A stretch of 64,000 nucleotides of DNA, taken from Lethocerus indicus. Lineage: Eukaryota; Arthropoda; Insecta; Hemiptera; Belostomatidae. Both the position numbers and the translations under genes were made by a program. The stretch spans positions 248,001 through 312,000 of the forward strand of contig JACDQD010000103.1 in NCBI GenBank assembly GCA_019843655.1, given 5' to 3'. The notes under the pieces are model-generated. The model did no database searches. It saw only the letters and a program-made list of their open reading frames with translations, and was not told the origin of the DNA. Position 1 is the stretch's first letter, and the number at the start of each line of letters is the position of its first letter. Positions 417-47,285 of this stretch are shown here, piece after piece.

Positions 417-640
417 TTAGGGGTAGCCAAAAGTAATCAAAATTTTGACTCTGGAATTCATTTTATTTTACTAAAAAAGAAATTTTAATTATTAATCTAC
501 TATATATTCACCGATATTATCACAACAACTGTGTGCCACTTTTCCGGAAAATTTTCGATTCCCCTCTTGAAGAAGAATTCCTCAAGACCGAAATACAGCT
601 TATCGAATTGTCGATTAATTTTGGGTACACCTAATATATT
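417..640 (+). repeat. Mariner-type MITE copy, forming the outermost part of the left inverted-repeat arm
   Basis: It starts TTAGGGGTAGCCAAAAGTAA and ends with the reversed partner (GTCGATTA..TTTTGGGTACACC, then TAATATA), so it has mariner-like terminal inverted repeats beside TA-rich flanks. The interior (GGAATTCATTTTATTTTACT, an AATTATTAATCTACTATATA block, CGATTCCCCTC, CCTCAAGACCGAAATACA) recurs in at least nine other places in this window. The length of about 220 bp with no coding capacity fits a non-autonomous MITE. The CCAAAAGTAAT core is typical of mariner ends. Confidence 0.8.
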
Positions 641-1140
641 ATAGGAGCTAAAAGACGTTTGTTAAACTCCACCTAAATATTTTTGAATATATCACCGATT
701 TTTCTGAGACTGGGAATATTATTGCTCGATTCGAGCCATAAAACACATTTAAGAAAAGTCAATTCTATTTGACACCAAAAGGGAGCTGTAAGGCCCCCCC
801 CCCTAAGGTATACGTAAAATACCAATATTTGCCCTTTAGGTCTTCGATCGGTAGTCGGCCCTAAGTAGCTTATCGGGGATGGGAAGGTCTGATGTTTCTG
901 CCAAATTTGATACAACTTCAATTTTTCGGGACAATTTAGTGTCTAAAAACTGCATTTTTGGGCTTAAAACGGTATTGAAACGGGCGTATTTTTGCTTAGG
1001 AACGGCATTTTGAGGCCTTTTCACGCTGAACCGCATACCTGAATCGATTATGCGTCGAAACACCGCAACTTTAAACACAAAATCGATTCGGGCTGAAAAA
1101 GCTGTTTTTGGCACAAAATTCGGTTTTAGGCGCAAAAATG
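417..1140 (+). repeat. Left arm of the large inverted repeat (mate at 18,650-19,275)
   Basis: Read outward to inward, this segment matches the reverse complement of 18,650-19,275. Shared blocks include the mariner-type terminus, CCGATTTTTCTGAGACT, GAGCCATAAAA, CTATTTGACACC, a poly-C run next to GTATACGTAAAATACC, GTAGCTTATCGGGGATGG (18,920s in reverse), GATGTTTCTGCCAAATTTG and ATTTTTCGGGACAATTTAG. The left arm has about 120 extra bases (roughly 575-690) that the right arm lacks, including the inner end of the MITE. At its inner edge the arm grades into the 33-bp satellite. Confidence 0.85.
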
Positions 1141-4100
1141 CAATTTTGGCGCAAAATCGACAAAAATGCGGTGCGGTTTAAGAGAAAATTGGCTCTTCAG
1201 GGCTAAATGCAAAAATGCCGTAGATTTGCGAAAATGCGGTATTTTCGTGCGCAATTGTCTATTCATTGATGAGGTCGGCTCTTAGGGCTAAAGGTATCCC
1301 ATAATGCGGTTTTAAGAGCGAAATGCCCATAAATCGAAATTTCAGGCAAAAATGAGGATTTTAGGCGCAATGCTTTAGTCTCGAATTGGATTTTGCCCGT
1401 AATTAGGCCTAATATCCCGACCCAATGTGCTAAATCGGCCCAATAGCAGGCGGCAAAAATTTTAAAACGCAACATTACGGCCCACGTAAATGAGAGTCAT
1501 TTTGCGCCAATCATCAATGGGATTTTGGTAAAAATCGGCAAATGAGGTTTTAGGAATATCGGTTTTCAGGTACAAAATGCAGTTTTAGGCCCCATATGGA
1601 ATAGATCCATTTGGCAAAATGAGGATTTAGGCGCATCAAAAAATGGCGGTAAAAAAGATTTTAGGCAAATGCGGTTTTAAGAATTGACCGTAATGGCAAA
1701 AATGAAAGGCGCAAAATGGCCGCCGCAAATGCGGTTAAGAACAAAATCGGCAAAACGGTTTTTTCACTATTGCCAGTTTTTAGTCTCGAATTACAGCATT
1801 TTTGTCGCAGTCTCGAAATCGCAACTTTTTGCTAATTTGGCCGGCAATCAAATACCCAATATCGGTCAGGTGCAATAATCGGCAGAAATAGGCGGTTTTT
1901 GTCGCAATCGACAGAATGAAAATTCTAGGCGAAAGAGCCCATCCGAGTTGCGGTGATTAATTTTCATGCGAAGGTTGTTGGGACAGGGATTCCAATGCAT
2001 TTGGTAACGATTCAGCGTCCAAGGGGCTGCCTGCTAATAGCGACACGCCAACTAATCAAATTCGGGCCCCAACAGCCGCCAAACATTATAATTTAATAGA
2101 TTCGACCACCGCACAAATATGATTCGCTTTATTTTCGCAAATATTGAGTTTAATCTCTCCGTCCCTTTGGGCTATTTACACTGAGATTTTCGACCGTTCG
2201 CCAGACTGCATTTCGACCGGTGCGTCCCCAGAACTGGTGGGCGGAACTGGTTCTCATAGGACTCGTACCTACGTTCATTTGTTTCGGCACCACAGAATGA
2301 AAAACTTGCTGCAACACTCGATTGAAAAAATATGCAGAGCGATAAAATTATATCTGGCCTAGACAAATAATTTTGATTGCTAAATCATTTTAGGTCAATT
2401 CTGTTTTAAGCACAAAAAATGGATTACAGGATTATTACAGGGACAGGGATGCGGTTTTAGGCATGAATCAGGCCATTTACGGTTTAGGCAGGCTAGAAAA
2501 ATCGACCCCATAAAATGCGTTTTAGCCCCGAAAAGCCCAAAAATGCGGTTTTTAATGGTTTTAGTTGTTCAAAAACAATTGTGTTTAATCGACCAAAAAT
2601 GCGCTAGACCCAAAATCAGCACAAAAATAAGGTTTTTGGCCCAAAAAAAATGCGGTTTTGCAAATCGGCCTAGCGGTTTTAAAAATCTTCCATAAAATGC
2701 GTTTTCTGGCCTAAAATCGACCAAAAATCCTATGACTCGACTAAAATCGGCTAAGGCCCAAATGCTACCATTTTTAGGCGCAAAAAGTGTTTCCGCAGGT
2801 TTTCCAAAAATTTCGGCAGATAATCGACGGACCAAAATGCGGTTTTAAGGCCCAAAATCTACCAAAAAGTAAAAACATCTTAGTCGGACAGTTTAAGGGA
2901 GGTTTTAGGCTGAAAACGGTCGATATTAGCTGCACAATGAAAATGAGAAATTTGGTGGCCCAAAAATTAATACGGTCTTCCTAAAATTTAAACTCTGCCA
3001 GCAATTAGCCAAAAATACGGTTTTTAGTGAAAAATTCGGTAGACGGCGCTAAATAATTGAAATATACACGATTTTTCGCCCTTAAATGGGCCCAAATATG
3101 TTTTTAGGCGCTAAATGTGTTTTAGGCGGCCCTAAATCAGGCAGTCAATGCTTACAGCATTATTAATGCAGTGCAGTTAACCTTTAATCGCCAATAAACC
3201 AATAGCTTTTTAGATATAAATTAAAATGCGGATTTTATTAGGTGTTAGCGCAAAATTTTAAAAATGACGGTTTCAGCCACAAAATTAGGCCCATAAAATA
3301 AACTGCCCATAAATGGGCGGTTTTGGGCATAATTAATAAAAAATGCGCGGTTTTGGGCCGATTAATTGCCCCAAATTATGCTAGAGGCCAGAAATGCGTT
3401 TAAGCTAGCCCCATAAAATACAGCCCAAAAATGAGGTTTTAGGCGCCATTGCCTAAAATAATTAATTGGTACCAGCACAATCAAGAATCGGGTTGGTGCC
3501 GCATTGACCATGACCAAATAAGGTAAAAATACAGTGCGGTTTTAGGCTCATTACCTATATATTGACAGCCCATAAGGTCATCATAATCTGAGCCCATGCG
3601 TTTTCAAAAAATGCGGTTTTAAGGCCCAAATTTTAAGTTTTCCAAATACCATAAATGGCGGTTTGGAATGCAAATAGTTACATAAATGGGGTTAAAAAAA
3701 TGAATATTTAAAATTTTAGGCCAGTTTTTGGCCCCAAAAATGGGCTTAGGGTTAAAATGCGTTTCACCCAAAAAGGAATGGCCCAACCTGTATGCCCAAG
3801 TGCGGTTTTAGACGAGGGCAAGATGCAGTATATTAGGCGCAGTTGTCGATAAATGTGGTTTTTAGCCCTTTTTAATGTGGCGCATGTGGTTTTATGGCCA
3901 GGTTTAGCCCTAAATAGGCGTCAAAATGAAAATCAAATTCCTTAGTGTGTTAAACGGTTTATACACAAAAATCGGTCCTAGAAAAACAAAATAAGGCAAT
4001 AATCATCATACATTATTTAAAAAAATGTTTTTTCAGCACAAATGGGTGTTTAGGCGCCAATTAAGGAGTTATATTTCTAAATTGGCCAAATGCGCGGTTT

Positions 4101-4500
4101 AGAGGCAAAGAGATTTGCGATTAATCGATCACAGCTGTTGGTTTTTAAAAAAATCGTTTTGTTTAGGTCCAAAAGTCATCACGCAAAATCGGAAATTAGG
4201 CGGTTTTAGCAGTCATGAGGTTTTTAGCTATTTATGGGTTTTAGGCCCCCTACGGTTTTGGGGCCCCAAGCTTAGCCCACATAAAATTTGAGGTTTTAGA
4301 GCCAAATCGGCAAAATACAGGCCCAAAAATTGTCAGGCGCAAAATTTATTCAAAAATAGTCAGCTGTTCGAAAACCTTAGCCCCAAAATACGGTTTAATT
4401 TATAACTAATGTGGAATACAAAAAAATTTTCGACCTTAATCGGTTTTTAGCTCAAAATTGGGTGTAACTCATTTAAAAGGACGAGGTTTCCAAAATGATC
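930..4500 (+). repeat. 33-35 bp satellite array, orientation GCGGTTTTAGGC
   Basis: Dozens of imperfect units contain AAAATGCGGTTTTAGGC, GCGCAAAATCGG and GGCCCAAAAATGCGG, which are the reverse complement of the arrays at 9,790-11,450 and 17,690-18,700. Unit spacing is about 33-35 bp. Units carry many small indels and are poorly homogenised, especially at 3,000-4,500, so this looks like an old or error-rich array. Short open frames in it are satellite translations only. Confidence 0.85.
1930..2390. other. Non-satellite interruption inside the left 33-bp array
   Basis: Satellite periodicity stops here and resumes at about 2,395. The sequence is unique in the window and no coding family is recognised. 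GGGACAGGGAT occurs near the left border (about 1,980) and again just beyond the right border (about 2,440), which might be remnants of an insertion duplication. Confidence 0.4.
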
Positions 4501-4539
4501 GCAACTCTTAGGGACACTTGTTATTGACTTTCGACTTAG

Positions 4540-7500
4540 GGAAAACACTTGGGGCAAGTGGGTGGAATATGGGAACCGAGAGGGCCCTTAGATTTTCGAT
4601 TTTCGACCCGTTTCCGTTTCAGGGGCGTGTGGGTGGAACGCGAAATAGGGACACCCGCCGTTAACTTAGGTGGCACAACTATTTAGTGGGTTGAAATGGG
4701 TGGTGGATTTTGACTAAATGGACACTTGTCGGTAAATCGAGGTCAACCCGCCAATTAAGGGGCAGTTTCAGTTCGGCTCATTTTAGGCCAGCATCTGAAA
4801 TACGATCATGAAACTTGCCCCGCCATCAACTGCGAGATATTTTCAATCCCGCCTGTATTAACTTTTCACTTAGCCGACACTTGTGGGTCGGAATTGTGGG
4901 TGGAATTGTGGGTGGAATATGGGACGAGAAAAAAATTTTCGCAGTGATATCACTGTAACTCACTTAGGGATACCGTTTTAAGAACACATTGCTGGGGATG
5001 GAATTTTCGAATATTTTCGATTTTCTTAAAAAAGGACGATCGTTTCAAAGTGTAACTCACTTTCGAGGGAAGTGGGTGGAATATGGGAGCCGTTTCAGGG
5101 GCAAGTCGACTTGTGGGTGGATATTTTTTCGAAAACCTTAATTTTCGAAATTAACCCGACTGTTTCAGGGGCGTAACTCACTTTTTGTGGGTGGAAAATC
5201 TGAGAAAATTTTCGAAAAACTGAGAAAATTTTCGAATTTTCGATTTTCATTTTCGAAAACTTAATTTTCCGTGGCCGAGGGGCAGGGAGTAACTGGGGTT
5301 AGGGAATATGGGACGAAGAATTTTCGAAAACCTTAATTTTCGATTTTCAACCCGCCGTTTCAGGGGTGTAACTCATCAATTTAAGACACTTGTGGGTGGA
5401 ATATGGGACCGATCTGCGAGAAAATTTTCGAAAACCTTAATTTTCGATTTTAACCCGCCGTTTCAGGGGCAAGTGTAACTCATTGAGGCCGATCTGCGAA
5501 AATTGTTTCGAAAAACCTTTTTCGACTTCAACCCGCCGAGACACTGTGTGGAATATGGGATCGATCTGCGAAAATTTTCGAAAATTTTAAAAACGAAACT
5601 TTTCGATTTTCGCCCCGCCGTTTCACCCGCCGTTGGGGCAAGTGTAACTCCTTTGGGACACTTGTGGGTGGAATATGGGATCGATCTGAGAAAATTTTCG
5701 AAAACCAATAATTTTCGATTTTCGACCCGCCGTTTCGAGCAAGTGTAACTCATTTAGGGACACTTGGGTGGAATATGGGACGATCTGAAAAATTTTCAAA
5801 AACCTTAATTTTCGAAAACCTTAATTTTCGAACCTTAATTTTCGATTTTCAACCCGCCGTTTCAGGGAAGTGTAATCTTAGACACTTATGTGTTGATCTG
5901 AATATGAAAAACCTTAATTTTCGGAATATGGGACCGACCCGCCGTTTCAGGGGCAAGTGCGAGAAAATTTTCTCACAGGGACACTTGTGGGTGGAATATG
6001 GGACCGATTAAATTTTCGAAAAACCAATTTTCGAACCCGCTGTTTCAGGGCAAGTTAACAACTCGCTTAGAGAAAATTTTCGAGGGGCACTCACTTAGGA
6101 CACTTGTGCAATTTTCGATTTTCAACCCGCCGTTTCAGGCAAGTGTAACTCACTTAGGGACACTTGTGGGTGGAATATGGGACCGATCTGCGAAGATTCG
6201 AAAAAACCTAATAATTTCGAAAACCTTAATTTTCGAACCCGCGCCATTCAGGGGCAAGTGTAACTCGCCAGGGACGCTGTGGGTGGAATATGGGATCGAT
6301 CTGAAAAATTTTCGATTTTTGCCGTTTCAGGGCAAGTTCACAGGGACACTTCCGATCTGAAATTTTCGAAAAATTATTTTCGATTTTCGATTTTCAACCC
6401 GCCGTTTCAGGGGCAAGTGTAACTCAGGGCATGGGACCGTGTAAAAACTCGATTTAAGTGGACAAGTGCTGGGTGGATGATACTGCTGGACGATCTGCTG
6501 AGAAAATTGATTTTCACCCGCCGTTTCACTCCCGTTTCAGGGGCACAGTGTAACTCCAGGGTACTTGTGGGTGGATCTGCGATATCCGATCTGCGATTTT
6601 CGAAAAACCTATTTTCGATTTTCAACCCGCCATTCAAGGGCGTAACATCACTAGGGACACTTGTGGGTGGAATATGGGACCGATCTGAGAAAATTTTCGA
6701 AAACAACCGCCGTTAATGTAACTCACTTGGGACACTTGGGGTGGAATATGGGACCGATTTTCGAAAACCCGATTTTCAACCCGCCGTTTCAGGGAGTGTA
6801 ACACTTGGGTGGAATATGGACAAAAACCTAATTTTCGATTTTCAACCCGCCGTTTCAGGGCAAGTGTAACTCACTTAGGGACACTATGGGACCGATCTGA
6901 GAAAATTTTCGAAAACCTTTTCGAAAAACCTAATTTTCGATTTTCAACCCGCCGTTTAGAAGTGTAACCTTAATTTTCTGCGAAAATCTGCGAAAATTTT
7001 CGACGACCCGCCGTTTAGGGGCAAGTGTAACTCATTTAGGGACACTTGTGGGTGGAATATGGGATCCGATCTGAGAAATATTTCGAAAACCTAAATTTTC
7101 GATTTTCAACCCGCCGTTTCAGGGGCAAGTGTAACTCACTTTGGACACACTTGTGGGTGAATATGGGACGAATTTTCGACCCGATTTTCAACCCGCCGTT
7201 TCAGGGGCAAGTGTAACTCATTAGGGACACTTGTGGGTGGAATATGGGACCGATCTGAAAATTTTCGAAAACCTTAATTTTCGATTTTCAACCCGCCGTT
7301 TCAGGGCAAGTGTAACTCATCTTTAGAGGACACTTGTGGGTGGAATATGGGACGATCTGAGAAAATTTTCGAAAACGATTTTCTTAATTTTCGATTTTCA
7401 ACCCGCCGTTTCAGGGCAAGTGTAACTCATTGTGGACACTCCGATGAGAAAATTTTCGAAAACCTAAATTTTCGATTTTCAAGTGTAACCGATCTGCGAA

Positions 7501-9440
7501 ATTTTCGAAAAACAAGTGTAACCGATTTTCAACCCGCCGTTTCCAGGGGCAAGTGTAACTCACGGGACACTTGTGGGTTAGCCGTTTCAGACCTGTCTTA
7601 CTTGACCGAAAACCTCTCGATTTTCAAGTGTGGACACTTGTGGTGCCGTTAATTTTCAGGGCAACCCGCCGTTTCAGGGGCAAGTGTAACTCACTTTTGT
7701 GGTGGACCACCTCGATTTTCAACCCGAGTTTCAGGGGCAAATTTTCTTAGGGACACTTGTGGGTGGAATATGGGACTATCTGCGAAATCTGCGAAAATTT
7801 TCGAACCCGCCGTTTCATATGATTTTCAACCCGCCGTTTCAGGGGCAAGTGTAACCGATCTGCGAGAAAATTCAACGATTTTCAACCCGCCGTAACTCAC
7901 TTGGACACTTGTGGGTGGAATATGGGACCGCCGATTTTCAACCCGCCGCAAGTGTTTCTGCGAAAATTTTCGAAAACCTTAATGGCCGGTTTCAGCAAGT
8001 GTAACTCTTGGAGGACGCTTTTAGACACTGTGAATATGGGACGATCTGCGAAAATTTTCGAAAACCTATAATTTCGAAAATTAGGGACACTCGAAAACCG
8101 ATCTGAAAATTTTCGAAAAACCTTTGGTACACTTGTGGGTGGAATATGGGACCGATCTGCGAAAATTTTCGAAAACCTAATTTTCGATTTTCGACCCGCC
8201 GTTTCAGGGGCAAGTGTAACTCCCGCCGTTTCAGGGCAAGTTGTGGGTGGAATATGGGATCGATCTGAAAATTAATTTTCGATTTTCACCCGCCTTTCAG
8301 GGCACTCACTAGGGACACTTGTGGGTGGAATATGGGACCGATCTGCCGAAAATTTTCAACCTTAATTTTCGATTTTCAACTTTCAGGGCAAGTGTAACTC
8401 ACTAGGGACACTTGTGGGTGGAATATGGGATCTGCGAAAATTTTCGAAAACCTAATTTTCGATTTTCGACCCGCCGTTTCAGGGGCAAGTGTAAGTCACT
8501 TTGGGACACTTGTGGGTGGAATATGGGACGATCTGCGAGAAAATTTTCGAAAACCTAATTTTCGATTTTCAACCCGCTGTTTCAGGGCAAGTGGGACACT
8601 TGACACTAACTATGGGTGGAATATGGGACACTTGTGGGTGGAATATGGGACTGAGAGAAAATTTTCGAAACCTTAATTTTCGATTTTCGACCCGCCGTTT
8701 CAGGGGCAAGTGTAACTCACGGGACACTTGTGGGTGGAATATGGGACCGATCTGCGAAAATTTTCAACCTTAATTTTCGCCGTTTCAGCCGTTTCAGGCA
8801 AGTGTACACTTGTGGGTGGAATATGGGACCGATGCGAAAATAGAAAACCTTAATTTTCGGAACCCGCCGTTTCAGGGGCAAGTGTAACTCACTTTGTGGG
8901 TGGAATATGGGACACTTGTGGGTGGAATATGGGACCGATCTGAAAATTTTCGAAAACCTTAATTTTCGATAAACTGGGACGCTTTTTGTGGAATATGGGA
9001 CCGATCGAAAACCTAATTTTCGAAATTTTTTCGAGGGGCCGCTGTAACTCATTGCAAAAGCTTCCATTTTTGGGCCGATCTGAGAAAACGAAAACCTTAA
9101 TTTTCGCGACCCGGCGACATTTTAGCAAGTGTAACTCATTTAGGGACAATCGGGTGGATCATAAAGTCGATCGAAAAAGTGCGGTTTTCGAAAACCTTAA
9201 TTTTCGATTTTCGACCCAGGGGCAAATAATATGGGACGATCTGCGAAAATGCGGTTTCGAAAAACCTAGCCCTAAATTGGCAACTTGCCGTTCTTGGCCA
9301 ATACACTTGTGGGTGGATAGTGCCGTTCTTATCTGCGAATTTTGAAAACGCCAAATTGACCATAAAATACAGTAACTCACTTTGGTATATTAAATGGAAT
9401 TGCGTTTTGAGCCGATCTGCGAAAATTCGAAAACCTTAAT
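4540..9440 (+). repeat. ~103 bp satellite array
   Basis: The repeat unit contains in order CACTTGTGGGTGGAATATGG, GACCGATCTGCGAAAA, TTTTCGAAAACCTTAATTTT, CGATTTTC, AACCCGCCGTTTCAGGGGCA and AGTGTAACTCACTTAGGGA. The best-preserved neighbours, for example from about 7,224 to 7,327, are spaced 103 bp apart. About 45-50 units are estimated from array length. Many units lack whole internal blocks, so spacing is irregular. Strand bias is constant: all units point the same way. Both edges contain mosaic units mixing this repeat with the 33-bp satellite (9,040-9,450 is clearest). Confidence 0.9.
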
Positions 9441-11450
9441 TTTCGATAAAACCGCTGACCAAAATGGGTTTTATACCGAAAAATTTTTGACGCATAAAAA
9501 TAACAAGCCCTACGATATGCGGGCCAATAAATGTTTTTACGCCAAATAAGGCCACCCAAAATGCGGTTTTTAGCCGCAAGCCCAATAAGCTCAAAAATGC
9601 GGTAGGTTTATTGGCCGAAAATGCGTTTTAGCCCAAAAGAAAGAATATTTTTAAAAAAAAAACTGCGATTTTGGGCCCTATGCGGTTTCAAAACTCAAAA
9701 TTAGCCATAAATGGAATTTTAATTTTGATTAATAAAAAACGCAGTTTTAGGTTAGCAAAAAGCTCCAGCATTTTTCTCCAATAAACCGCATGGCCATTTG
9801 GTCTCAAAACTGTTTTTGAAAAACCGATTTGGGACTAAAAACCAATTTACATAAATGGTCAATGTTCTTGACCGATTTTACACCTAGATCCTATCCCATT
9901 TCCTGGGCCTAAAACTATTTTTGTAGAATTGCAGACAGAAAACCTAAATCTAATTGGGCTTATTTTTGGGCGCTGCAGAAAAACCGCACATTTTGGAGCT
10001 TCAGAAAACCGCATTTTGGCTCAAAAAGACACTTTTAGGCTCAACGACCCAATTAGGTTTTTAACCTAAAACGACCAAAATATGCGGTTTTTAGAGCAAA
10101 TAGCCCACATCATGTTTTAGGTGCGGTGCTATTTTTACCCAAAATTAGGTGTTTTAGGCGCATCCTAAAACTGTATTTTACCGATATCATTTGTCCTAAC
10201 TAAACTCTCTATTTTGCAATCCTTGATTTCTCTATTTCGCATTAAGCCGCATTTGGACCTACAAATCCTCTCATTTCTGCTATTTCTGGGCCTCCGCATT
10301 ATCGACGTGGGCCTAAAATCCCGATTTTGCAACTCATTTTGCACATAAACCGCATCCAACACTAAAATAAAATCTGATTCTGGGCTAAACCGCATATAGT
10401 GGCTAAAACTGCATTTGCTGGGCATATTTTTCCGCATAAAACCTCATTTTGGGGAAGTTAAAACCGCATATTAAATTGGGCCTAATCCACATTGCCGATT
10501 TTGCGCGAAGGCCTTTTTGGCAACATAGGAACTCATTTTAGGTCTAAAACCGCATTTTTAGATTTTGCCGAAAACAGTATTTTCGAGGCCGTTTTTCCGG
10601 CTAAAAACTGTATTTTTTGGCTATATAATAATATTGTGTTGGCTTGGAGAGGGTGGGGAGGGCGGGCGTACGGCACTGTAGTAGGTGATGTATTGAGGAT
10701 TGGGCCTATAGGGCCTCTAGCCTGTGGAAGGGCTCGCTCGACCGCCGCCGGTCGATAACACTCGGTCACACTCGATCAAATACAACAACAGACTACTCGG
10801 ACAACAGACACAAAACGGCCAAACAACCGAATTAATACACCAGAGCGTAGATGGAGTCGAACAAATATATACCGCAATTATAAAACTGACCTTAGTCATT
10901 GTAACCTATTTTATCTGATTTGCGCCTGAATACCGTTTGTACCTTTTCGTAAAAACCACATAAAAACCACATTTTTGCTCTTAATAACCGCATTTTGGGT
11001 CGCCGAAAACTGCATTTGCGCCGAAAGCCGATTTTGTGCCTAAAACCGTCTGTTTGGGCCGATTTGGCGCTTAAATACCGCATTACGGGCAAAAAAGCAT
11101 TTTGGTCCTATTTTCAGCATAAAACCTATTTTGGGCGTAGAAACCGCATTGTGGCCCAACTTCCTAAAACCGCATTTCAGGCCGATTGCGCAAAGAATCC
11201 CTTTTTTGGCCTATTTTCCGCATAGGAACCACATTTTCGGGACTAAAAACCGCATTTTTGGGCCAATTATGGTCCTAAAATCTGTGTTTTTGAGCCTATT
11301 TTGCACCGAAAATGCTCATCTGTGGGCCTAAAAATATCATTTTTGGGTCGATTTTGCGCCTAAAAACCGCATTTTTGGGCCGATTATGCACCTAAAATCC
11401 TCATTTCTGGGCCTAAAATCCTCTTTTTGCCTCTTGACGTTAGTCATTAT
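9440..11450. repeat. 33-35 bp satellite array containing an orientation switch near 9,750-9,790
   Basis: From 9,440 to about 9,755 units read AATGCGGTTTTTAG, as in the left array. From about 9,780 they read AACCGCATTTTTGGGCC and GATTTTGCGCCTAAAA, the opposite strand. The cleanest periodicity is at 11,230-11,400, with CCGCATTTTTGGGCCGATT units 33-35 bp apart. The array is interrupted at 10,625-10,920. Confidence 0.85.
10625..10920. other. Insertion of unknown type inside the reversed 33-bp array
   Basis: This is about 295 bp of non-satellite sequence, GC-rich at its left (GGAGAGGGTGGGGAGGGCGGG) and AT-rich at its right. Its right end, TTAGTCATTGTAACCTATTTTATCTGAT, is repeated in slightly different form at 11,440-11,472 where the array itself ends, so the two may be copies of one repeat terminus. 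It could be a solo LTR fragment, but no LTR family is recognised. Confidence 0.4.
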
Positions 11451-11508
11451 ATTTAAGCTATTTTATCTGATATAATTCGTAAATATCCTGCGTTTCTGTC
11501 ACACGTGC

Positions 11509-11603
11509 CAAAAGTGACTGATACCGCTACTGAAGATGGCGAACGGCCGAAACGGAAACGAAATCTACGGTATTCCAATCACTCGCAGACCACAAAACAG
11601 GTA
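11509..11603 (+). repeat. Foldback family, single right arm
   Basis: It runs from CAAAAGTGACTGATACCG through CTACTGAAGATGGCGAACGG and ATCTACGGTATTCCAA to CAGACCACAAAACAGGTA. The hairpin block (GGTCT..AGACC) is deleted. No left arm is adjacent. Confidence 0.75.
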
Positions 11604-11719
11604 CTACTATTAAAGTCAATTTATTGCCTTCTATACAAAATATTTTCTATTGCCAAATGGGATAGAAGAGAGTAGGAAAATGTACAAAGTGACACTCGAA
11701 TGGAATGATGTTAAATGAA

Positions 11720-11940
11720 TGGTTTGATCTTTTGCTAGACCGGTTTCCCCATCTTCAGTAGCGGTGTCAGTCACAGTTGGCACTCTGGATGTTTTTCGGT
11801 GGCATCTGTCACTGTCACGGTACAAGTCACTGCGGGTACTGACTAACGCAGCGCTACTGAAGATGGCGAGCGGCCGACAAACCGGTCTAGCGAAAGAGCG
11901 AACCGGCGAGAGGAGACCATAAAACAGGTATTGTTAAACT
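11720..11940. repeat. Foldback element, both arms
   Basis: The left arm (TTTTGCTAGACCGGTTTC, CATCTTCAGTAGCGG) and right arm (GCTACTGAAGATGGCGAGCG, ACCGGTCTAGCGAAAGA) are inverted copies flanking a short spacer with GGATGTTTTTCGG. The right end AAAACAGGTATTGTTAAACT carries the family terminus. The left arm lacks its outer ~50 bp. Confidence 0.8.
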
Positions 11941-12385
11941 TACAATTTTATCCTTAGTCTTACGACTATTGCTGTTGGACTGACATCGGCGGAAGCGGCT
12001 TTTACATTTCTAAGTGCATAATCAAAGCGGCGTGCTGCTTAGGTTCGATAATCGGAACCTTTTTCTGAGAACGGCTGAAACGATGCCAAAATAGAAATAC
12101 GGCGAAGGGGTTCGCTAACTGCCGATAGTTGGCACGGGCTCATCGGCACGCTTATTAACATCCAGCTTGAAAAGGTCCCAATTAGCGAGCTCCGCCAGTT
12201 TCCTAATCCTTTTCAAATACAACTGACATTTTCGTCCTGTTCAATACCAACTACAACGTTTTACTGGGAAACGAAAGTTCAAAGTGCGAAAACGGCTAGA
12301 ATCCATTGTCGAGTCCGGTGTTTGAAATTCATTCGTTTAAACACGAACAGAACAGTAATAAATTCAATATATAATCAATAATAAT

Positions 12386-12728
12386 ACTGTAGGTTCGTGA
12401 TGTTTCCGTCTCCTCTCGCTGCCAGTTTGGTCTTTTGCTAGACCGGTTTGTCGGCCGCTCGCCATCTTCAGTAGCGCTCTGTGTCAGTCACTGTCGGGCA
12501 CTTTGGATGTTTTGGCCATCCTCACCGCCCACTGTCACTTTCATGTACGTCAAAGTGCAGTACGAACGAAAATGCTCCGACCGACCGACACAGAAGATGG
12601 CGAGCGGCCGAGCGGCTGACAGGTGCTGAGCTCAACCGAAAGGTCCAAGACCAGCAAACTCAGACAAAGAGAGGAGACGGACCTACAGTATCCAAACCCT
12701 CGCGGACCACAAAACGGGTATATTAAAT
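12386..12728. repeat. Foldback element, both arms
   Basis: It begins CTGTAGGTTCGTGATG and CTCCTCTCGCTGCC, with CTTTTGCTAGACCGG and the CCATCTTCAGTAGCG core. The mirrored right arm has AGAAGATGGCGAGCGGCC and ends GACCACAAAACGGGTA. The right hairpin block is rearranged. Confidence 0.75.
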
Positions 12729-14165
12729 CAATAATAATAATAATGTCAGCAAATCGGAGATAGAAAAATGGATTACGAAACTTATTGAAGGGAGGAAATC
12801 GTAAATAAATGAGAGGAGAACTATTACCGTCAAACATTTAAAAAAGGGTAACAAGGTGAAGGGTAAAGCGTAATTGCAATTATACGTGTTTGCCTTAAAG
12901 GTAAACTGCAACAACTGTTGACCTAGACCTGTATTTCCTTCAGACTTCTACTATAGAAGGGAAGACCTCGTGCTCGATTCAAAGATAAATGTCCATCCCG
13001 AATGAATAGTGGGGTGTTAACGTGTTATTCATTAGGGGCTGAAACCTCAATTTTCCGCCGAAACCTAACAGCGGACCGAATAATTTCAATCGCATAATGC
13101 TCGTGAAAATAGACATTTCAAACCGAAAAAGTGACGGAAATTCGGATGAGAAGAGAGATTTAAGATAGCACGGAGACGTCTGTTTGGGCGCTAGGTGTCT
13201 ATTTTTTCGTTTATTTAATCATATCCCAGAGATTGAACTTCAAGTCCGGGAATTGAGGAAATAAGTCCCAATTCAATAGTCAGCCGGTTGACTCTATTTT
13301 AACCAAGTCCCCCTGCCCGTACTTAGCGTATAAATAACGTTATCAGATAAGGGGAGGGAGGAGGGGAGGGAGGAGGGGGTGGAGTTTATTATGAAGGCAG
13401 CGATAACGCCGGTCGGATAATTTCCGTTTTATTCTGCCGATAACTTATCATTTGGTGCCGTCGGTCACTGTTTGATTTGGCTTCTCGCCGTCCGTCAGTA
13501 GCGCCGCGTCCGTCAGACCAGTGCGTACAGGATGCTTCGCGGGCGATTTGGACGCGGGGAGAGGCGGGAATGGAATTTAAGTAACCGACTGTCCTGGGGT
13601 GTTAAGGATGGGTAGGAAGGACTTTCGACTGGAATCTCTGGATGTTTGGACATTGTCAGTTTCGATGTCCTTTTCAAAGGAGGTCTGACAACAGACGAAA
13701 TTTACGATTTAGATCTGTTATTTCGGTGAAAATATCAACAGGATGTTGACAGTTTTCTGAGAGTCAATTGGCGGAACGCGTCCGGACGGTCCCAGTTTCT
13801 GTGAATTTCATAGAATCGAATTCAGTCTCAATTACGTAGACTTTCTCTCTGAGCCGCGCGTCAGGCTTCTCGCACACAGTCAGTAGAACATTAAACGGCG
13901 AATGTCGGTAGCCTAAACGGATGGGGGCCGATGACCATATAAGCAGGCGCCGTGCTCCAAATTCCTTTCGGAGGTCAATGACCCCGCCAGTTACGCCTCG
14001 ATCGTCCCAACTTCCGAAACAATTGAAATATCTGAAAATTGATCGCGTTTACTCGACCAGACCTGTTTCCGTTTAATAGATTACTGGTGTAATTAAACGA
14101 AAAGACGGTCAACGCGAGTTTAAAATATTGGTAAACAAGCGGACCAGTTAAATACGATATTATTT
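12729..14165. other. Unique DNA without a recognised gene; G-rich tract and GATA-type motifs
   Basis: No conserved coding segment was found in any frame. 13,351-13,383 is a G-rich run (GGGGAGGGAGGAGGGGAGGG and onward) with quadruplex potential. WGATAR motifs cluster close by: TTATCAGATAAGG (13,340), GCGATAACG and CCGATAACTTATCA (13,400-13,455). Confidence 0.4.
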
Positions 14166-14169
14166 AATA

Positions 14170-14962
14170 GTACCTGTTTTGTGGTGTTTCTGTCTCCTCT
14201 CTCGCCGACGGTGGTTCGGTCTTTCGCCAGACCGGTTGCTCGGCCGCTCGCCGTCTTCAGTAGCGGTGTCGGTCACTGTCGTCATCCCGACTGCGCTGTG
14301 CCACTTGTACTTCGGCCGTTTGTCAAATTTGGCGAGCGGACGAAACCGGTCTGGCGAAAGACCGAACCACCGGCGGCGAAACCGGTCTGGCGAAGACCGG
14401 CAACAGGCCAGCACAGAAACACCGTAAACACCGGTACCTTAAGGACGATTCCTTCTAAGGACGATTCCACTGTTTTTTTTTAGATTAGCCTAGTTGGCTA
14501 CGGTCACTCTCGCCAGACCGGTTGCTTGCCGACCGGTCGCCGTGCTTCAGTAGCGGTGTCGGTCACTGTCGTCATCCTGACTGCGCTGTGCCACTTGTAC
14601 TTCATTCCGGTCCGTGTCCGTTTGTCAGAGTTTGGCGAGCGGACGAAACCGGTCTGGCGAAAGACCGAACCACCGGCAGCGAGAGAGAGAGGAGTCAGCT
14701 ACTGATTCAATTCCATTCCTTAGATTAGCACCACAAGTTGTACTGTTTTTTTTTTTTTACTCTAGACGGTCTTTCGCCAGACCGGTTGCTCGGCCGCTCG
14801 CCGTCTTCAGTAGCGGTGTCGGTCACTGTCGGCACTTTGACGTTTTTCCGGGCGTCTTCCCCACTGCACTGTGTCACTGTGTAGCAGTGACACCGCTACT
14901 GAAGACAGCCGAGCGGTCCGTCGCAGGCGAGAGGAGACAGAAACACCACGAAACAGGCAGTT
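14170..14962. repeat. Cluster of three foldback copies
   Basis: Copies lie at about 14,170-14,440, 14,502-14,696 and 14,767-14,962. Each has a left arm with CCAGACCGGTTGCT and CGCCGTCTTCAGTAGCGG, and a right arm with GGTCTGGCGAAAGACC or GCTACTGAAGACAGC. The first two share a spacer (CGTCATCC/TGACTGCGCTGTGCCAC), so one is a local duplicate of the other. Only the first keeps the left terminus (TACCTGTTTTGTGG). Confidence 0.8.
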
Positions 14963-15242
14963 AAGAAGACAGTGAATTTAATGTCTGAAATCATCAATAT
15001 TTAAAATCGTATCTGAGTTCAATTATTATTACGATAGACCGGTTTTCACTTGTGGAATTCTATCGGCCGTACACTGCGTGTTACGAGTGCCGAATAAGCA
15101 TTCCGCCTTCGGTGTCGTTTTACTCTGTTGGCAAAAGTCAAAACGAAAACGCACAGAAAATAAAGAAAAAAGAAAAAATACAGTAGCCAACTTGGCGCTA
15201 ATCTGAGGAATAGAATTGTCCTTGAGGAGTACCGCCGGTTTG

Positions 15243-15440
15243 CCCTTTCGCTAGACCGGTTTCGCCCTTGACAAACGGGTCAAACAGTAGCAGTACAAGT
15301 GGGGCAGTCGCAGACTGCAGTGAGGATGAGGACGGTGACCGGCGCAGCGCTACTGAAGACGTGGCCGAGCGGCCGGAAAAACCGGTCTGGCGAAAGACCG
15401 AAACCGCCGGCGGCGAGAGGAGTGACAGAAAACGACGGTA
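15243..15440. repeat. Foldback element, both arms, rearranged
   Basis: It has TTTCGCTAGACCGGTTTCG on the left, then GCGCTACTGAAGACG, GGTCTGGCGAAAGACC and CGGCGAGAGGAG on the right. Outer ends are missing. Confidence 0.7.
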
Positions 15441-15990
15441 CCGAATCGCTTCTGAAATAAATTAAATAAAATATCGGCTCGTACAGTCGATAGGCGTAAT
15501 GACTTTCGTCGGACTGCAATTACGTTCAATGGGACGAACGGAAGCCCCGAGACTGTCTATAATAGGGCTTTTAAGACCGGTTTTCGCCCGAATTATAGAT
15601 TTTAACGGAGCGCCTACTACCTGTTTTCAATCCCACAAATTCAGAAGAGAGATACGGACGTTTCGCCCCCAACCCCCCACCACCCCCAGGAGAAACACAA
15701 ATGATAGAAACACAAATTGAATGGAGGAATCCGATAGTTCTATGAATTAAAGATGAAACCGTGTAGAGGGCCGGGGTTACCGGACGAGAAACGGCTACGT
15801 GGAACCGGTTTCATTTACATCCTTCGTTTCTGGAGGCGGCGTTAACGCCCCAACCCAGATGCCGCTGTTCACGATTTGATTCTTCAATAGAATTCGACTT
15901 AATGAAATCAAATTTAAGGTAATCGATCGATAAGCCATTGATCGGTAAACCGAGGGAGCGTTCGGGGGGAAGATGCTACTGAGGGACTGA
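15441..15990. other. Unique DNA, nothing recognised
   Basis: No family-level coding similarity, splice-bounded exon or repeat was recognised on either strand. Confidence 0.4.
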
Positions 15991-17050
15991 GGGATTATAG
16001 AATCAATAATATTGGTCATTTCAACAATCTTGGATAACATCAATAATATTGGATAACTCATTAATGTGGAGAAATATTCGATAACTACACTAACTGATTG
16101 ATAACTGAAGTAATATTCTAAAACATTCGGATAACTGAAAAATAGAGAATATTCCAATGTAACTTCGATACAAAAGTCAATTAGACGATTCTAAAATCCT
16201 TTAGTACGTAATAAAAACATTGGTCAATATCAATTCATATAATTTGTCATTTTTCTGGATAGGATAACAATGGAGAATCATTCATTCAACTACACTAACA
16301 GTGGATAACTGAAGTAATATTCTAAAAATTGGATATTGGATATTGAATAGAATATTGATAACATCAATGATTTGTCCTATAACTTGGATAACCCAAATGG
16401 ATAATTATAACACAATGGAGATCAAAAATAACAGTGATACATCAAGTACTATTTGTTATATTCCATCATATATATGATCGAATACATAACTCACACTATT
16501 TCATTATCAAAATGTCATCTCTGGTAACTAAGAATAATAATATTGATGACTCACTGTTGATTACATCAAAAATGATCACATTTCAACACATCTTGGAAGG
16601 TATGGATGACTTCATCTCACACTTATTCCAAGAAATTGGTTAATACATTCGATTCAATTTTGGTTTTCAACAATATAAACTAACTACAAACATTGATAAC
16701 TATACGATAACTTAATAACTACACTGAACAGTAATTCCAAAATTATCTGTAACATTCGGTATCGAATGTTATAATATAATCTTTGGATTTCTTCTATATA
16801 TTATAAAAATTCTATTTGGTAATTCTCATATAATATTCGTGACTCAATGGAGAATATCGACAGTCAAATTCCGTAATGTTGGTTATACTTAACAATATTT
16901 TACTTCAATAATAAAACGATAAAACATCGGTAATCAACTATTGAATTATTCATCAATAACATTCGATATTTATCAAGCTTATTCAACTCAGTTCTAACCA
17001 GTGAATAATAACATTCGGTAACAAGAATTTGGTTAGTATGGTTTTTAAGT
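15990..17050. repeat. AT-rich minisatellite-like block
   Basis: Loose repetition of ATAATATTGGATAAC, GATAACTACACTAAC, TGATAACTGAAGTAATATTC and similar strings occurs over about 1 kb, with irregular spacing. The composition is far more AT-rich than its neighbours. It lies inside the right half of the large inverted repeat. The open frames here are low-complexity I/N/S/Y-rich translations and are not taken as genes. Confidence 0.65.
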
Positions 17051-17495
17051 ATTGCTTTTACTTTCCTTCCATAAAATGGTTAACGTTTTATCAAACGCCT
17101 CGAGTATTCCATTAATTTCGTTTCAATGGAATTTTAAATTTCAGGCGTTTTGAAACATTAATACGGATTGTTGTCTGCACGAAATAGTTCAAATTTCAAA
17201 ATGATATATATATGGTCTTACATTCGTTCTGAAGATTTTTTATAAACAAACCGCCTTCGTTTCGATATAATAATTTAAGATAAGAAATAATGTTTAAACG
17301 TTAAGATTTATGCGCAATAGACCGGTGTCGGATGAGGCTGATAATGAATGGATGGATTGATGACCGGCCGAAGAAGACGTCATGGGATCGAGAGGAGGTT
17401 GATGAAAGATTGAGATGGGGGAGGAAGTCTGGGGTGAGGATATGCGGGCATGAAGAAGATTGGGTTGGTGGATGCAGATGGTTTTAAGATGGCAG

Positions 17496-17542
<47 letters not shown>

Positions 17543-17667
17543 TAGAGGATAGGGGTTTAGGGTTGGGTTTTTTTCCCCGCCCGTTCAATGTACTACACCA
17601 GACGAATTTATGACACACGTGCCGAAGGCGTTGAATATAATATATTATAAGGAGGAGAAGAAATATA
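17051..17667. other. Unique DNA with a long (TA)n microsatellite
   Basis: A TA dinucleotide run occupies about 17,501-17,540. The preceding ~170 bp is purine-rich (GGGGGAGGAAGTCTGGGGTG). No coding family was recognised. Confidence 0.5.
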
Positions 17668-18700
17668 ATATATTAGGTGTGCCCAAAAATATCCACAAAG
17701 ACCGTATTTTCGGGCCTAAACCCTTATTGATACGATTTGTTTCAAATTTCAGCATTTTTAAATTCAGCTGAACTAAAAACCGCATGGGCCGATTTTGGCC
17801 GATTTTGCGCCTAGAAAACATTTTGGTGCATTTATTTGCGCCGATTTAAACCACATTTTGGGCCGTGCCTAAAACCACATTTTGCTCTTAGACTAAATCT
17901 CTGAATCATGAGGGCCGATTTTGCGCCTAAAACTATGGGCGAAAACCGCCTATTTGCGCCTAAAAACTGATGAATTTTCGGGACAATTTTGCGCCTAAAA
18001 ACCACATTTTTGCTCTTATGTAACCGCATGGGCCGATTAAGTGAGATTTTTGGACTAATTTTGCGCCTATTTTGCCTAAACCGCATTTTATGCATTTTGA
18101 TTGCGCCTAAAACTGCACATTTTGTGACTCCGCCTTAATTAACGCATTTTTGGGCCGATTAACCCTAATAACTGCAATTTTGCGCTAAATACTCTTTGCT
18201 CTTAATTAACCGCATTTTGGGCCGAGGGCCGATTTAACACTCAATAACTTCAATTTTCGGGACAATTTTGGGCCGATTTTGCCGAATTTTCGGGACAATT
18301 TTGGTACCGCATTTTGGTGCCTAAATACCACATTTTGCAATTAACCGCATTGAGCCTAAAACCACTTATTTTGCTCTTAATTAGGACCGCATTTTTGGGC
18401 CGATTTTGCAGACCTAAAACTTCTCTTAATTAACCGCATTTTTGGGCCGATTTGAGACTAAAATCCTCATATTTTGGCCTAAAAGCATTTTTGGGTCGAT
18501 TTTGCGCCTAAAACTGCATTTTGTGCCTAAAACCGCCTATTTGAGCCGATTTAGCAAGTTCAATAATTTTCCGATAATTCGCGAATAAATACCGCATTTA
18601 CGGGCAAAAACTGCATTTACGGGCCGATTTTGCTCTTAAAAACCGCATTCTTGGGCCGTTTTTACGCCTAAAAACCGAATTTTTGTGCTTAAAAAACAGC
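17668..18700 (-). repeat. 33-35 bp satellite array in reversed orientation, with a mariner-like end at its left border
   Basis: Units read AACCGCATTTTTGGGCCGAT and TTTTGCGCCTAAAACC, the reverse complement of the left array. The left border at 17,668 is TTAGGTGTGCCCAAAAATAT, which resembles the mariner-type terminus seen at 417 and in the MITEs. The array and the adjoining arm to 19,275 may therefore have been a discrete 1.6-kb element. Confidence 0.8.
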
Positions 18701-19275
18701 ATTTTCAGCCCGAATCGATTTTGTGTTTAAAGCGGCCGAAATTGCGGTATTTCGACGCATAATCGGTTTATAGAAAAATACCGCCTGAAAATGCGGTTCC
18801 TAAGACCAAAATACGCCCGTTTCAATACCGTTTTAAGCCCAAAAATGCAGTTTTTAGACACTAAATTGTCCCGAAAAATTGAAATCGTATCAAATTTGGC
18901 AGAAACATCAGACCTTCCCATCCCCGATAAGCTACTTAGGGCCGACGACCGATCGAAGACCTGAAGGGCAAATATTGGTATTTTACGTATACCTTTAGGG
19001 GGGGGGGTGGGGGGCTTACAGCTCCCTTTCGGTGTCAAATAGAATTGGCTTTTCTTAAATGTGTTCGGTTTTTATGGCTCAAATCGAGCAATAATATATT
19101 CCAAGTCTCAGAAAAATCGGAGGGGGAATCGTAAATTTGCCGGAAAAGTGGCAGTTTGAGAGTTGTGTCGATAATATCGGTGAATATACAGTAAATTAAT
19201 AATTGAAGTTTCGTTTTTAGCAAAATAAAATGAATTCCAAAATTCAAAATGTCGATTACTTTTGGCTACCCCTAA
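18650..19275 (-). repeat. Right arm of the large inverted repeat (mate at 417-1,140)
   Basis: The reverse complement matches 417-1,140 from TTAGGGGTAGCCAAAAGTAA inward. It includes the poly-G run (about 18,998-19,008; poly-C on the left), GTATTTTACGTATACC, CCATCCCCGATAAGC, CTATTTGACACC-type and GGGACAATTTAG-type blocks, and the CAGCCCGAATCGATTTTGTG segment. Both termini share the TAGCC variant where solo MITEs read TACCC, which supports common origin of the two ends. Confidence 0.85.
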
Positions 19276-46239: not shown

Positions 46240-47285
46240 GTTCACCGCATGACAATGGCTTTGGCAAACGGCCGGTGAACCGCCAGAAAAGCCGGTCATC
46301 CGCAGGCAACAAGAGTACAATTTTTTTACCTTCTGTCAATCCGATTGAATCACGAATACTACCCCTGAATAGGTATAATCTCCCAGGAATAATTATTGAC
46401 TTAAAATAATAATTTTGACCGTCATTTCGGAATGACGATGACGTTCAAAAGGTGTACGGCCGGTGAACCGCCAGAAAAGCCAGAAATTTTTATTTTCTGT
46501 TAATCCGATTGAACCACGAATACTACCCCCTGAATAGGTATAATCTCCCAGGAATAATTATTGACTTTAAAATAATAATTTTTGACCGTCATTTCGAAGT
46601 CGGTTCTCGGGTCATGACGATGACGTTCAAAAGTGTACGGCCGGTGAACCGCCAGTAAAGCCAGAAATTTTTTATTTTCTGTTAATCCGATTGAACCACG
46701 AATACTACCCCCCCCCCTGAATAGGTATAATCTCCCAGGAATAATTATTGACTTTAAAATAAAAATTTTTGACCGTCATCTCGAAGTCGGTTCTCGGGTC
46801 ATGACGATGACGTTCAAAAGGTGTATGAACCGCCAGAAAGCCAGAGAAATTTTTTATTTTCTGTTTATCTGATTGAATCACGAAAACAAAAAGTATTACG
46901 ACTAAATAAATTCGGTCGTGCGCCATATAGGATTATTTTTTCAAATTCGTTCTCTCCCGAGTAAAATTACTGCTTCAGTATACTACCCTCCCTCAATAGG
47001 TATAATCCCCCCCCCGGGAATAATTGAAATTATCGACTCGGAAAAGTATTACGACTAAATAAAATTTGCCAACAGTCATTTCGAAGTCGGTTCTCGGGTC
47101 ATGACAATGACTTAATGACGACGAAAATTATTACGGCTAAATAAATTCGGTCGTGCGCCATATCGGATTCTCTTTTTCAAATTCGCCCTCTCGTCCCGAG
47201 GTAAAATTTTCGCTTCGGAATACTACCCCCTCCCTAAATAGGTATAATCCCCCGGAATTATGACTAAATAAAGTCCGTTCTTTGG
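46240..47285. repeat. ~180-bp tandem repeat, about four to six units
   Basis: Three good units start at about 46,271, 46,458 and 46,638, each with GGCCGGTGAACCGCCAGAAA, TCTGTTAATCCGATTGAA, ACGAATACTACCCC, TGAATAGGTATAATCTCCCA, GGAATAATTATTGACTT and ACCGTCATTTCG. A fourth from 46,826 changes into a longer variant (TTCGGTCGTGCGCCATATAG, AAAATTACTGCTTC, AATAGGTATAATCCCCC) repeated once more to 47,285. Homopolymer C runs vary between units. Confidence 0.85.

Follow-up and report, generated by a model that had tools for sequence, protein, structure and literature searches.

Inverted arms around a satellite block in Lethocerus indicus are made of ordinary components, with no sign of a giant mariner element

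A link between Tc1/mariner-type miniature inverted-repeat transposable elements (MITEs) and satellite DNA is an established idea. In the published descriptions, miDNA4 is a Tc1/mariner MITE of Xenopus tropicalis with a satellite inside, and the foldback element Tetris and Xstir are described alongside it as satellite sources (PMC12628747, PMC9659126). Here, we describe a 64,000-nucleotide stretch of Lethocerus indicus (contig JACDQD010000103.1, positions 248,001 to 312,000; hereafter the window), in which two inverted arms with mariner-type ends enclose 33-bp and 104-bp satellite arrays between positions 417 and 19275. A first, sequence-only reading had offered two views of these 18.9 kb, as one giant non-autonomous element or as satellite DNA with a copy of an element on either side. 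The second view fits our results. The stretch is probably a satellite block of a kind common near the ends of long contigs, edged by an old inverted duplication and by dispersed MITEs; the inverted arms are real, their components are ordinary, and we found no evidence that 417-19275 has ever moved as a whole. As in miDNA4, a mariner-type MITE and a satellite are present at one place, and the segment 17673-19275 has such a layout. The locus differs from miDNA4 because here many loci have the satellite but showed no MITE end, the MITE copies fetched from elsewhere contain no satellite, and the candidate unit is single copy; on that footing it adds no clear new case. What it does show is that satellite arrays with copies of an abundant MITE beside them can be mistaken for one giant element.

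Comparison of the window with itself gives two inverted matches at the outer edges, 416-564 with 19276-19123 (85.7%) and 695-1138 with 19120-18659 (86.5%). The same terminal sequence had been claimed for both arms, and indeed the 20 bases TTAGGGGTAGCCAAAAGTAA are identical at 417 (+) and 19275 (-); allowing up to three mismatches, this sequence has 6 matches in the window versus 0.01 expected from shuffles. The outer 0.6-0.7 kb had also been described as reverse complements, and inverted arms do lie there, but they are composite and not one continuous repeat, as the right arm lacks an equivalent of ~565-694. Ungapped identity between the arms is 95.2% in the core (695-922) versus 88.5% in the MITE halves, with 11 differences in 228 positions and 17 in 148, respectively (Fisher p = 0.025). 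Homology beyond the outer MITE ends was not found (score 28 versus a shuffle maximum of 30).

The arm core is not a dispersed element. The genome searched comprises 426.8 Mb in 209 contigs, with the window at C9:1613604-1677603, and a search with the core returned 65 rows, only four of which are long. These four are the inverted pair itself and its duplicate on contig C100; the remaining 61 span only 27-156 bases each, most of them within those portions of the query that resemble the 33-bp repeat. The genome-wide arm search suggested at the outset therefore recovers the core only as this inverted pair and its duplicate, whereas the MITE part is dispersed elsewhere. Contig C100 repeats the block with 0 differences to C9 across the 40 kb compared, and so is no independent witness. 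Two other MITE places of C100 match C9 at another offset, and an insertion or rearrangement between the contigs seems likely.

The mariner-type end at the arms belongs to a small dispersed element, a stand-alone MITE. An inner L-type end at 634 closes a complete 218-bp copy, so the outer end at 417 need not end anything larger. Mariner-type ends are thus present, as the sequence-only reading had it, but they belong to this short element on the left and to a truncated copy of it on the right. When the MITE was searched against the genome, 40 of 2592 first-look candidates were scored, giving 41 rows on C1-C12 and C100; 40 of these are near full length, and two are the window's own copy and its C100 duplicate. 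Members of the family are mariner-type, dispersed and 213-218 bp long. We fetched 20 further copies from the scored rows as a family comparison set, of which 18 have TA on both sides as read by eye (the exceptions are L050 and L052), with C as the first base of the end in three of the 18. None of the 20 exceeds ~219 bp, so these copies carry no satellite array, and the suggested link of MITE ends to satellite birth receives no support from them; the segment 17673-19275, discussed below, is a possible exception. The copy at 417-634 shares with Tc1/mariner-type MITEs a length of ~215 bp (by which alone coding capacity was judged), many short dispersed copies, the TA target duplication and short inverted ends. 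These begin TTAGG, and in the 20-copy majority all but two of 30 of the first 31 positions are alike between the two ends; no feature of 417-634 differs from such elements. Within the window, MITE copies and pieces make up 17 rows at 11 places, counted by eye. There are 75 Transposase_1 matches in the genome, and the three inspected as a possible mariner transposase partner have no matching end pair.

Both satellites are widespread. One 33-bp word and one 104-bp word were counted on both strands, giving 409 + 394 and 3857 + 3814 genome occurrences, respectively, and 0 for either reversed control; the first 100 places of each were listed. The 33-bp listing covers all of C1, where 63 of the 73 words, and 29 of the 37 clusters that they form, are within 5 Mb of a contig end; 20% of clusters would be expected there, and the arrays on this contig are therefore gathered near chromosome ends if long contigs are taken, from their length, to be chromosomes. 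The first 100 listed 104-bp words form six groups at C1:806457-1594731, and every one of them is on the + strand, in contrast to the even strand balance of the genome total. In addition, we read 20 further satellite stretches chosen from the rows of the arm-core search; two of them (L017 and L018) overlap, leaving 19 places. Blocks of the 33-bp repeat are in all 20, as expected from how the stretches were chosen, and 104-bp repeats are also in 12 (counted by eye). The likeness to terminal (subtelomeric) satellite DNA lies in the concentration of arrays near contig ends and in their homogeneity at some loci (97% in L017). The difference is that there are two partner satellites in varying order and that the array of the window is unusually broken. 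Direct repeats occur at 33-bp block edges in L030 (1654-1886/4594-4828, 93.6%) and L022 (3523-3865/5902-6255, 84.5%), and may represent a boundary sequence common to the blocks or blocks that were duplicated.

Foldback elements, of which Tetris is one (PMC9659126), have short tandem-repeat blocks inverted around a centre, and in this they resemble the window, where the 33-bp arrays next to the two arms have opposite sense, as the sequence-only reading had correctly observed. However, adjacent 33-bp blocks measuring 200 bp or more show no preference, with 16 pairs in the same and 16 of the 32 in opposite orientation, so the inverted polarity at the window is what half of the cases show. A foldback layout of 33-bp and 104-bp blocks had been prompted by a same-sense 33-bp block before the 104-bp array at 12 of 13 junctions (by eye), and was rejected: after the 104-bp array the block is opposite in six cases and the same in five, two of five 104-bp arrays on C1 are preceded by an opposite 33-bp word, single 33-bp blocks occur, and the junction sequence of the two satellites is not constant but varies from place to place.

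Identical 20-base ends in inverted orientation and arms of 0.6-0.7 kb are what could suggest that 417-19275 is one giant non-autonomous mariner element with the satellites as cargo. Nevertheless, we regard this as very improbable. The end at 634 already closes a complete MITE, the single-copy core has no second locus, the flank is TA on the left (417) but TT on the right (19275), and the two end copies belong with the most distant members of their family. The 33-bp and 104-bp arrays said to lie inside are there, but no block of either was found between 11,413 and 17,773, so that ~6.2 kb of the interior is neither satellite, and the right side has an L-type end of its own at 17673. Finally, the MITE is a dispersed family in its own right, and the satellite blocks lie at other loci, MITE pieces being present in 5 of the 19 places read.

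For the satellite block that we favor, the 33-bp and 104-bp repeats would have spread and changed length by the usual processes of tandem repeats, such as unequal exchange. The inverted pair of cores and its divergence point to inverted copying, by which a short segment, made up of the arm core and the start of the 33-bp array, would have come to lie at both edges. The dispersed MITEs at the outer edges appear to have different histories, the left one looking like an intact insertion at TA and the right one being a truncated copy joined directly to the core, for which a deletion is the simplest explanation. Relative to the 20 family copies, the left MITE has seven private changes and the right eight, and only 1 of 16 derived sites is common to both. 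Identity between the two (89.7%) is the lowest of the 21 comparisons of the left copy and ties the lowest of the right, and the left copy is absent from the best 40 of 2037 candidates found with the right. Judged from these comparisons, the scarcity of common changes and the greater divergence of the MITE halves than of the core lean towards separate insertions; however, the family is star-like and few common changes are expected anyway, which weakens the argument.

Several observations do not sit easily with this account. On either side the arm homology stops at the outer MITE end, a limit that a plain segmental duplication would not readily explain. Both arms have a G at end position 10 that the 20 other copies lack, and at the MITE density of the window the chance that another MITE of matching sense would lie no more than 100 bp from the second core is ~0.9%. 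Given these two points, MITE and core may have been copied together, and we allow for either course, in which the MITE was copied along with the core or inserted twice. Elsewhere, L022 and L034 each have a MITE piece ~100 bp or less from a 33-bp block, and the block on C6 (L017/L018) has MITE pieces on both sides with the R side outward. Lastly, there is the L-type MITE end at 17673, whose prefix is found five times in the window versus 0 in 20 simulated sequences.

With regard to the neighbors of other satellite blocks, the five places with MITE pieces correspond to 6 of the 20 further stretches, and such proximity would be unsurprising if MITEs were as dense there as in this window. At the C6 block ~0.8 and 0.7 kb separate the pieces from the 33-bp arrays closest to them, another 33-bp block follows past the right one, and the best 30 inverted pairs are all 33-bp array against 33-bp array, with no arm core like that of the window. 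At L017 1611-2023, the middle of a MITE copy has expanded to a long run of TA, a minor example of repeat expansion within a MITE.

The end at 17673 raises a second, smaller candidate for movement. In 17673-19275 the 33-bp array has a correctly oriented MITE-type end on each side, the arm homology stops at the MITE end, and TA is found outside 17673. These features would be explained if the segment were a 1.6-kb non-autonomous element, mobilized when a mariner transposase took the R end of one MITE and the L end of a second as its pair of ends and transposed the intervening DNA together with the 33-bp array; the left arm would then be the donor or a rearranged sister. We consider this unlikely. 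The L end resembles the MITE over only ~18 bases, the DNA at this end has no other place in the genome, the unit is single copy, and its right flank is TT instead of TA. A search for the empty site matched the joined flanks only to the window's own flanks and their duplicate, but the flanks are single copy and the power of this test is low. Movement of the segment as a unit is therefore not indicated by further copies, a TA duplication or an empty site. If the 1.6-kb unit did move, this would demonstrate directly that satellite DNA can be transported to new places by paired MITE ends. A little less likely again is the further proposal that terminal satellite DNA (17673-19275) was mobilized by a mariner transposase acting on the outer end of one MITE paired with the far end of another; if it were true, new satellite blocks could arise from pairs of MITEs, and the event would have left its trace in the inverted arm core, with its homology stopping at the MITE end.

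The satellite block as assembled has an unusual interior. The 104-bp array (4450-9450) has 30.6 block jumps per kb versus 0.2-8.9 in seven other stretches, ~3 to 150 times as many, whereas substitution is ordinary (5.2% versus 1.6-8.5%); the reference unit was taken from L017, which lowers the figures for L017 and L018. Microhomology at the jumps shows no excess (0.86 versus 1.08 bases) and was rejected as the source of the broken array. This combination makes the collapse of a longer array in assembly a fair suspicion. The fuller proposal, that the interior arrays are in part an assembly artefact in which a longer satellite array was collapsed or misjoined, so that neither the 18.9-kb distance nor the internal order would be real, is one that we regard as somewhat unlikely. 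The arms differ by ~5-12% substitutions, so a recent chimera of reads is not the cause, the C100 copy is identical although not independent, and real decay of an old array is an alternative.

Table 1. Features of the stretch 417-19275, in window positions
Feature	Position	Strand	Remarks
Complete 218-bp MITE	417-634	+	R end 417, L end 634; TA both sides
Spacer between MITE and arm core	635-694	+	60 bp; no counterpart in right arm
Left arm core	695-1138	+	Inner part 923-1072 33-bp-like, sense opposite to adjoining array
33-bp satellite, + sense	1139-4450	+	Patchy; approximate limits
104-bp satellite, + sense	4451-9450	+	Unusually broken up; approximate limits
33-bp satellite, mixed sense	9451-11429		Mixed or + first, then - sense; approximate limits
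Other DNA	11430-17672		No blocks of either satellite; contains copies of another dispersed repeat
1603-bp unit	17673-19275		L-type MITE end 17673 (TA outside), R-type end 19275 (TT outside); single copy
33-bp satellite, - sense	17773-18688	-	
Right arm core	18659-19120	-	
Truncated MITE	19123-19275	-	R part only

Scans of the window with Rfam (gathering threshold) and for tRNA genes gave no matches, and one 26-base pattern of the 33-bp unit had 0 exact matches in IMG/VR and GTDB contigs. At many places between 11,720 and 58,000 of the window there is a dispersed repeat, GC-richer and with CTTCAGTAGCG in it, in both orientations and partly as palindromic pairs. Short similar sequences (TTAGTCATT...TATTTTATCTGAT) at 10,890-10,920 and 11,433-11,471 flank a 0.5-kb block of the 33-bp repeat; with a 14-base match, they look like a short duplication around the block. 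Further along the window, at 46,432-46,884, a 187-bp unit is present in 2.5 tandem copies that are 91% matching.

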